A stretch of DNA of 64,000 nucleotides from Acidobacteriota bacterium (GTDB lineage Bacteria; Acidobacteriota; UBA890; WLXD01), in contig WLXD01000003.1 in NCBI GenBank assembly GCA_012103255.1, forward strand, positions 329,984-393,983, written 5' to 3'. The number at the start of each line of letters is the position of its first letter. The first letter of the stretch is position 1. A model generated the notes under the pieces. The model was not told the origin of the DNA, did no database searches, and was given only the letters and a program-made list of their open reading frames with translations. Of the stretch, positions 5,833 through 56,613 are shown piece after piece. The position numbers and the translations under genes are program-made.

Positions 5833-7514
5833 GCTCCGCGCCCAGCAGGCGGCTTGCCGAGGTACCGGATCACCGCCCAGCACGCGGCCAGTCCCAACCC
5901 GAGAAACACAAACGGATTGAGACCCGCTCCGGCCGGGAGATAGCCCACCGCCACCGCCAGGCCCGCGGCGATCAGAGCGTAGGGAAGCTGTGTGCGGACG
6001 TGCTCAACCGTGTCGCATCCGCTCGCGAAGGCGGCGACGATGGTCGTGTCGCTGATTGGAGAGCAGTGATCACCGAAGACGGCTCCCGCCAGGATGGAAC
6101 CAATCGTGGCGATCACCACCGCGCCGGGCGCCGCTCCGCTTTCGAGTCCGGTTAGGGCGGCGGCGATCGGGATGCACAGCGGCATGAGCACCCCCAGGGT
6201 TCCCCATGCTGAACCAACGCTGAACGAAACGAGCGCCGCGAGCAGGAACACCATCGCCGGGAGCGCCACAACGGGGAACTGGCCATCGAGCACGCCGACG
6301 AGCCACCCGGCAGTATCGAGCGCGCTGATCACGCTGCTGAGTGTGAATGCGAAGACGAGGATCAGAACCGGAAGGAACATCTGGCGCATGCCGTCGAAGA
6401 GCGCCACCACCGAGCCTTCGCGGCGCTCGGGCACAGCCAGACCCAGTACGGCGAGGGCCACCGCAATGGAGAACGCGGTGGCCGTCACGAACACGAGGTC
6501 CGCATCAGCCTGCCCGAAGGCCTGAATCGTTCGATCTAGCCAACTGCCCTGCGCGGACGGCCCCAACTTCGCCATCCCATCAACGTAGAGGCCGCCAAAG
6601 ACCGCCCCGATCAACGCCAGCACCGGAAGCGCGGTCAATGCGATCCGACCTGATCCACCACTCACACCGGGTTCGCCAGTTTCGGCCAGCGGCTCCGTCG
6701 GCGCCGCCTCGAGGTCGGCGGCGGCTTCCTCTTCCGCCTTGCGCATCGGCCCTATGTCCCGTCCCAGCCAGACGGTGAGCAGCACGATCGCGAGCGCGAA
6801 ATAGTTGTAGAACCTGTAGGGCAGCGTCTCGATGAGAATCTGGTATGACGACAGCCCGGCAAAAGCAGCCGCATCGCCGAACGTGGTTTCGCCGTAGAGC
6901 GCGAGTCCGTTCTGGATCAGCGTCAACTCGAACGCGATCCAGGTGGAGATGAGCGCGAAGGCCGCGATCGGCGACGCTGTCGAATCGACAATGAACGCCA
7001 GTTTCGGCCGCGACAGGCCCGCGCGATCGGTGATCGGACGCATCGTCTTGCCCACGAGCATTGTGCTGGCGAGACCATCGAAGAAGACGACCCACCCCAT
7101 GGCGAACACCCCGAGCCCCACGCGTCGCCGCGAATCCCCCCTACCTAGAGCCCGCGAAGCCAAAACCTGAAGGCCGCCGATCCGGTTCAGCAGTTCGACG
7201 AACCCGCCCATCATCAGAGAAAAGACCAGCGCCGAGATATTCCACCGGTTGGTCAAGGGCGGAATCAGATGCTGACTAAACAGATCGACGAAGGCCGTCG
7301 CGACGTTGCCGTTCGCGAGAAGGACCGCGCCGCTGAATGCCCCCAGGAAGAGCGCCGAGTAGATGTCTCGTGTGAGAAACGCCAGGCCGATCGCCACCAC
7401 GCTGGGCCATATCGACGCCGGGCCTCCCTGTGGAGGACCACTCAACACGAACCCAAACGTCAACAGGACGAGTGCCCAGGAAGCGATCGTTCGTTTTTCG
7501 AAGTTTCTGGCCAT
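5829..7514 (-). CDS. NhaC-family Na+/H+ antiporter or ion-coupled organic-acid transporter
   Basis: A 561-residue, very hydrophobic inner-membrane protein with about 12-14 predicted helices. Family signatures are the FLTRDIYSALFLGAFSGA segment, the FFDGLASTMLVGKTMRP stretch (conserved acidic/polar residues in a helix) and SVGSAWGTLGVLMP near the C-terminus, followed by GDHCSPISDTTIVA, a hallmark of the NhaC and malate/lactate antiporter group. A central charged loop (about residues 260-290) is not conserved. It is the first gene of a three-gene minus-strand operon: its TGA overlaps the GTG of the M20-like gene by four bases. Pairing with two exported hydrolase-type proteins suggests a role in taking up a product rather than only pH homeostasis. 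This is inference. Confidence 0.85.
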   Translation of the reverse strand: MARNFEKRTIASWALVLLTFGFVLSGPPQGGPASIWPSVVAIGLAFLTRDIYSALFLGAFSGAVLLANGNVATAFVDLFSQHLIPPLTNRWNISALVFSLMMGGFVELLNRIGGLQVLASRALGRGDSRRRVGLGVFAMGWVVFFDGLASTMLVGKTMRPITDRAGLSRPKLAFIVDSTASPIAAFALISTWIAFELTLIQNGLALYGETTFGDAAAFAGLSSYQILIETLPYRFYNYFALAIVLLTVWLGRDIGPMRKAEEEAAADLEAAPTEPLAETGEPGVSGGSGRIALTALPVLALIGAVFGGLYVDGMAKLGPSAQGSWLDRTIQAFGQADADLVFVTATAFSIAVALAVLGLAVPERREGSVVALFDGMRQMFLPVLILVFAFTLSSVISALDTAGWLVGVLDGQFPVVALPAMVFLLAALVSFSVGSAWGTLGVLMPLCIPIAAALTGLESGAAPGAVVIATIGSILAGAVFGDHCSPISDTTIVAAFASGCDTVEHVRTQLPYALIAAGLAVAVGYLPAGAGLNPFVFLGLGLAACWAVIRYLGKPPAGRGA

Positions 7515-55691: not shown

Positions 55692-56483
55692 TCAGGTTTT
55701 GCGTGCCCGCCAGTTGATGCCGACCGTGCCGAAACTCGCGGCACTCGACTCCTGCGGCGCTCCGTCGAACACCTCTTTGCGCCAGGTGATCTCGAAACCC
55801 GCGAAACCAGCAGCGGTGACCACCGCTTCGAGCTCTGCATCCAGCAGAGCTCCGGCGATTCAACCAGTCCACAAATCGATGCGTTGTTTCGCCGAATCGG
55901 AGACGGGTTTCTGCACGAGAATGTCGGCAATCTGCAGCCGGCCTCCCGGACGGAGAACGCGGTCGAACTCGCGCAGCACGGCAGGCTTGTCTGGCGCCAG
56001 GTTCAGCACTCCATTCGAAATCACCACGTCGGCCCAGCCGTCATCCACGGGCAGCGATTCCATGTAGCCCTCGCGAAACTCGACGTTGTCGAAGTCGGCC
56101 TCGGCCGCGGCGCGACGTGCTCGGTCGAGCATCGCCGGGGTCATGTCCACGCCGATCGCCTTCCCCGCCGGGCCTGCCATCTTCGCCGCCACCAGCGTGT
56201 CGATCCCGCCGCCCGACCCGACGTCCACAACGTTCTCGCCGGACGCGATCTCGCCAAGACTGAATGGATTGCCGGTGCCCGCAAACGACTCGATCGCCGT
56301 TTCCGGAATGCCAGCGAGCCATTCATCGCGGTACTCGACGATCTGCGTGAGCGTACGACCCGTATGGAAGTGGAACCCGTGATCGGGCTCACTCGCGACC
56401 AGGTCGTACTCATCGCGCACGGCAGCGCGAAGCGTGTCCAGGTCGACGCCAATGACGCCGAGTTCATCCTGATGATCCGTCAT
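55692..56483 (-). CDS. SAM methyltransferase (ArsM-related), candidate selenoprotein with in-frame TGA
   Basis: A class I SAM-dependent methyltransferase, 263 residues if the TGA at codon 208 (55862-55860) is read through. The SAM loop is VVDVGSGGGIDTLVAA (about 86-101), acidic strand end IGVDMTPAMLD, and ISNGVLNLAPDK lies beyond it. An N-terminal FHFHTGRTL block is typical of this branch. The frame to TGA ends RIDLWTG; relatives continue C-IAGAL with the Cys conserved, as in ArsM, where it binds arsenic. Here TGA is followed in frame by IAGALLDAELEAVVTAAGF and on to TGA at 55694-55692. No other Cys occurs in the protein. A SECIS-like hairpin follows the TGA at once. The ATG at 56483 has GGAG five bases upstream. 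Alternatives are a TGC-to-TGA nonsense change or a sequencing error. Confidence 0.75.
55830..55852 (-). promoter_or_regulatory. Candidate bacterial SECIS element
   Basis: On the minus strand, 7 nt after the in-frame TGA, GAGCTCTGC pairs perfectly with GCAGAGCTC (9 bp) around the 5-nt loop TGGAT. The distance from TGA to the loop is 16 nt and G is the second loop base. Both fit the published bacterial SECIS rules as I know them: loop 16-37 nt from the UGA, loop of 3-14 nt, G in the first two loop bases. The hairpin lies entirely inside the coding frame. Confidence 0.6.
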
Positions 56484-56613
56484 GGTCGCTCCGATGCTGT
56501 TCTCGAGATGGCTTGGGCAGGCAGCCGCGCGTCGCGGCTCGAACCTCGTCGTCAAGAGAAAGTACCGGAAACTCCGCGCGGAAGGCTCATCCGCGGGCGA
56601 GTTGCTCTTTTGA

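Follow-up and report, generated by a model that had tools for sequence, protein, structure and literature searches.

The window, the whole 64,000-nt stretch of DNA analysed here, carries on its minus strand an open reading frame for a SAM methyltransferase with one in-frame TGA. After RIDLWTG and the TGA at 55862-55860, the frame goes on as IAGALLDAELEAVVTAAGF... and ends at the TGA at 55694-55692. The translated protein contains no cysteine. The features assigned to this gene are as follows.

55692..56483, minus strand: open reading frame of the predicted Sec-containing ArsM-like SAM methyltransferase, 263 residues with U208 (translation with TGA as U; Pfam/NCBIfam matches; full-length conservation)
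56489..56492, minus strand: GGAG, likely Shine-Dalgarno sequence, 5 nt 5' of the ATG (sequence reading)
56483-56481, minus strand: start codon ATG (sequence reading)
56355..56375, minus strand: FHFHTGR motif, residues 37-43, with His38 and His40 (A1 alignment)
56271..56273, minus strand: Thr71, opposite CmArsM Cys72, which binds As in true ArsM (profile alignment to PDB 4kw7/4fr0)
56010..56012, minus strand: Gly158 of SNG, opposite CmArsM Cys174 of SNC, which binds As in true ArsM (profile alignment to PDB 4kw7/4fr0; invariant in the A1 alignment)
55860..55862, minus strand: in-frame TGA, predicted Sec208 (69 of 79 related loci, and 13 full-length phylum homologues, have TGA at this column)
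55830..55852, minus strand: predicted bacterial SECIS element, 9-bp stem, loop TGGAT, UGA-to-loop distance 16 nt (fold; conservation and compensation; rules of PMC13188914)
55852-55844, minus strand: 5' arm of the hairpin, GAGCTCTGC
55843-55839, minus strand: hairpin loop TGGAT
55838-55830, minus strand: 3' arm of the hairpin, GCAGAGCTC

Every coordinate of the frame (56483-55692) and of its TGA (55862-55860) in the original prediction was verified. The neighbouring genes, as named from sequence, encode a PadR-like regulator on each side, FtsX/MacB-like permeases and an ABC-F-like ATPase; they look unrelated and seem to give no hint of function. At this locus of the source genome, no arsenic genes were seen adjoining the methyltransferase gene.

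A bacterial SECIS element is described by a loop of 3-9 nt, a stem of 4-16 bp, a UGA-to-loop distance of 16-37 nt, a G among the first two loop bases and an MFE <= -7.5 (PMC13188914). In the window, a perfect 9-bp stem starts 7 nt 3' of the TGA, and the hairpin falls within these limits, with a loop of 5 nt, G as the second loop base, a distance of 16 nt and a folding energy of -24.9 kcal/mol for the 45 nt after the UGA. The geometry first proposed for it (9-bp stem, 5-nt loop, 16 nt and G in the loop) agrees with the published model. An Rfam search gave no SECIS-type match, the sole hit being P4 below threshold (14.5 vs 37 bits). Folded alone, the region was only moderately unusual against shuffled sequences (z = -2.4), and comparison with relatives was therefore required.

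Within the phylum sample of 396 genomes, the window gene has exactly one TGA, as does each of the 12 full-length homologues closest to it, always at the same column, and a more distant homologue in genome G054 has TGA there too. Scanning the genome collection yielded 422 relatives. At the best 79 of these 422 loci, the codon at the Sec column is TGA in 69 and TGC or TGT in 10; because the scan pattern had Cys at this column, any bias would favour Cys forms. The best 79 loci span about a dozen phyla, and related loci were found in Acidobacteriota, Chloroflexota, Gemmatimonadota, Thermodesulfobacteriota, Myxococcota, Nitrospirota, Nitrospinota, Actinomycetota, KSB1, Latescibacterota, Poribacteria, SAR324, Marinimicrobia and others. 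Among relatives that carry a name, an Acidobacteriota MAG (L063) is nearest, and the congener represented by L034/L063, 77% identical, has TGA at the Sec column. The original prediction had related methyltransferases carrying Cys at the TGA, which holds for distant homologues but not for the nearest relatives, where TGA is found; its expectation that homologues would show either Cys, or TGA with a hairpin, at this column was borne out.

The hairpin follows the TGA among these relatives. The 10 Cys forms lack it, except for one chance-like stem, and standard pairs at seven stem positions occupy 95% of the cells in distinct TGA sequences against 48% in Cys forms. Among TGA forms, the stem pair +15:+23 occurs as GC, AT, TA and CG, and in two loci (L042 and L173) the stem is kept despite a very different sequence and peptide. 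For the hairpin codons, numbered from Sec, the normalised synonymous entropy in TGA loci was 0.06 at Ala4, 0.08 at Leu5, 0.12 at Leu6, 0.06 at Ala8 and 0.38 at Glu9, against a mean of 0.84 at 125 other conserved codons. The Ala4 codon is always GCT and the Ala8 codon always GCA in TGA loci, indicating that selection at the protein level is no sufficient explanation. Taken together, the sequences compared show a conserved TGA and hairpin, synonymous sites that are frozen and pairs that are compensated, a combination far beyond chance.

Genes for SelA (534 bits), SelB (346 bits across its frame) and SelD (330 bits) are present in the source genome (Acidobacteriota; 95% complete, 4.8 Mb in 9 contigs), together with one tRNA-Sec above the Rfam threshold, for which ARAGORN gave the anticodon TCA, that is, tRNA-Sec(UCA). 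All four components for which the original prediction proposed a search, selA, selB, selD and tRNA-Sec, are thus present. The selD gene has an in-frame TGA of its own (L145, G000:C2:892635-893561), indicating that SelD itself is probably a selenoprotein. The selA gene was found in 14 of 14 full-length TGA carriers, compared with 251 of 396 phylum genomes overall (p = 0.0015); in a fifteenth carrier, with a partial gene in a genome 75% complete (G069), selA was not found.

Since the hairpin tracks the TGA, synonymous sites are frozen and selA is present in the full-length carriers, Sec recoding is computationally secure, and the reading of UGA 208 as Sec, a prediction by computation, is close to certain. 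The UGA would be decoded by SelB and tRNA-Sec at the SECIS hairpin directly 3' of it. A true stop, leaving a truncated or decaying methyltransferase with a downstream remnant, is very improbable: the 207-residue product alone does retain the entire SAM-binding domain and matches methyltransferase families, but the frame beyond the TGA, and the TGA itself, are conserved across phyla, the hairpin and synonymous sites are conserved and compensated, and the genome has Sec machinery, so that comparison with relatives ruled this reading out. Still less credit is due to a sequencing or assembly error at a real TGC or TGT, which was ruled out by the same comparison: Cys forms do occur in the family, but the hairpin lost from them is intact in the window gene, and TGA is present in the 77% identical congener and 68 other loci, 69 in all from unrelated projects, which makes an isolated error very unlikely.

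The protein has an ArsM-fold, SAM-binding Rossmann domain and matches Pfam Methyltransf_31 (SAM methyltransferase). The AlphaFold model has a pLDDT of 92, and the nearest solved structures are those of CmArsM with SAM (4fr0) and with As(III) (6cx6). By profile alignment to PDB 4kw7/4fr0, U208 falls on CmArsM Cys224. Cys 72, 174 and 224 are conserved in all ArsM retrieved in an earlier survey (PMC5552862). The window protein thus has Sec where ArsM has Cys or Sec at position 224, and Thr71 and Gly158 where ArsM has Cys at 72 and 174. Both Gly158 and the H38-F-H40-x-G42 motif are invariant in the A1 alignment; H[FY]HxG is found in every one of the 76 distinct Sec sequences used for the tree, 20 of which have no Cys besides Sec. 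A canonical ArsM-like protein, with the three Cys motifs YGCGNP, SNCVLNL and WSGCISGA, is encoded elsewhere in the source genome.

The original prediction suspected that the family might not be new, and rightly so. A Sec 'arsenite methyltransferase' with the motif UxxG has been catalogued (PMC13188914), 41 Sec-containing arsenite methyltransferases were reported in 39 organisms (PMC5029168), and such an enzyme is also listed in PMC9312934. Like the catalogued type (NF008823, UxxG; WP_011987699.1), the window protein has an ArsM fold and one Sec in UxxG; its NF008823 score is 227.3 bits against the cut-off of 263. It shares the Sec column and SNG with NF041537 (ArsM_AhpD_UU) and NF041536 (ArsM_DUF2284_UU), but has neither an AhpD nor a DUF2284 domain nor a second Sec, and has HFHTGR for YPTGRAG and FAGTGNP for FCGVGNP. 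It scored 243.6 bits against NF041537, over the methyltransferase part only, where the cut-off is 510, and did not reach the cut-off of NF041536. True NF041537 members (L158 and L159) agree with it in the Sec column and SNG but differ in their YPTGRAG and FCGVGNP or YCGVGNP motifs and in the extra domain; among 18 further carrier genomes, the NF041537 cut-off was reached in none. The methyltransferase part of the methyltransferase/UXPK-star double selenoprotein (NF047649) also aligns, with 204 bits below a cut-off of 460, but the window protein has a single Sec and no UXPK-star part. The canonical ArsM/AS3MT enzymes (CmArsM, PDB 4fr0, 4fsd, 6cx6) resemble the window branch in fold and in the position of Cys224; unlike CmArsM, the branch has no counterparts of Cys72 and Cys174, has Sec for Cys224 and a shorter C-terminal part, and carries the new HFHxG motif. 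As its scores lie below the cut-offs of NF041537, NF041536, NF047649 and NF008823, the protein belongs to an unnamed stand-alone subfamily of a kind already known: the branch is widespread and stand-alone, and the Sec-ArsM kind itself is already on record. Sec methyltransferases of the YPTG/FCGVGNP type (L162-L170) were also observed in the phylum of L080 (Desulfuromonadales); they score below the NF041537 cut-off and seem to stand alone, with no AhpD or DUF2284 domain.

The gene product is very probably a stand-alone, single-Sec SAM methyltransferase of the ArsM fold, its UGA decoded at the SECIS element and its Sec208 presumably holding a soft substrate. Placed as Cys224 is in ArsM, Sec208 would bind a soft metalloid, metal or chalcogen as ligand or nucleophile, and the substrate so held would attack the SAM methyl group. 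The invariant His38 and His40 possibly stand in for the ligands Cys72 and Cys174 of true ArsM.

In relatives, recurrent neighbours are OsmC, DsrE, ArsR-rhodanese and MFS proteins, in a minority of loci, and rhodanese-metallo-beta-lactamase is also among the neighbours. OsmC lies upstream in about ten loci and DsrE downstream in about nine (for example, L067:4386-4970 and 6008-6463). On one contig, a Cys-form ArsM-like methyltransferase (SNG, FHFPTGRAG) shares one frame with MerT-like and HMA heavy-metal domains (L127:2453-4081, minus strand); this fusion lies near a Sec methyltransferase, a possible link to mercury. Such neighbours, the MerT/HMA fusion included, suggest chemistry with soft metals, metalloids or sulfur, though only a minority of loci have them and the source genome does not.

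The substrate is the least certain part of this assignment, arsenite being the default guess by homology; a different soft substrate (methylated arsenical, mercury, persulfide or selenide) has about the same likelihood. That the enzyme acts on mercury, a persulfide or selenide, or an arsenical that is methylated beforehand, through a new site made of Sec and HFH, comes close to an even chance: the ligand set differs from that of ArsM, relatives' neighbours handle sulfur or persulfide (OsmC, DsrE, rhodanese, rhodanese-metallo-beta-lactamase) and a methyltransferase near one relative carries fused MerT and HMA domains, though such neighbourhoods occur in a minority of loci and are absent from the source genome. 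An ordinary arsenite methyltransferase with Sec replacing Cys224 is plausible but somewhat short of even: ArsM gives the top structural and profile matches, the literature classes Sec homologues as arsenite methyltransferase (PMC13188914, PMC5029168) and ArsR-type regulators adjoin some relatives, whereas the NF008823 score is too low (227 vs 263 bits) and two of the three arsenic-binding Cys, conserved with the third in ArsM (PMC5552862), are Thr and Gly in this branch, which argues against plain arsenite methylation. The source genome, moreover, already has a canonical three-Cys ArsM, by which the arsenic role may already be filled. Arsenite as the substrate of this Sec-ArsM-like enzyme may therefore be wrong. 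We tentatively propose, at somewhat less than even odds, a distinct selenoenzyme family acting on a soft substrate other than arsenite, in which a lone Sec and the HFHxG His pair would replace the three-Cys site, and whose dependence on Sec would be ancestral, in many phyla.

A tree built from 104 sequences places the Cys forms within the Sec forms, which requires three changes; many inner forks are weakly supported. This nesting suggests that Sec is the original state of the branch and was replaced by Cys about three times, in Chloroflexota. A more distant Sec methyltransferase (L143; FHFFHGRE, SNGVVNL, LWASUIGGALLEGEM) was observed in another genome of the phylum, and suggests further Sec branches.

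With TGA read as a stop, genes of this branch would be annotated short and the catalytic residue would be lost, and no NCBIfam model tested attains its cut-off on the window protein. If the family is indeed distinct, such annotation would truncate or misname its members. With this branch, natural Sec/Cys pairs become available for a methyltransferase instead of the usual redox enzyme, Sec being seemingly ancestral and Cys derived, and the question arises of what role one selenol plays where such a site otherwise requires three thiols.
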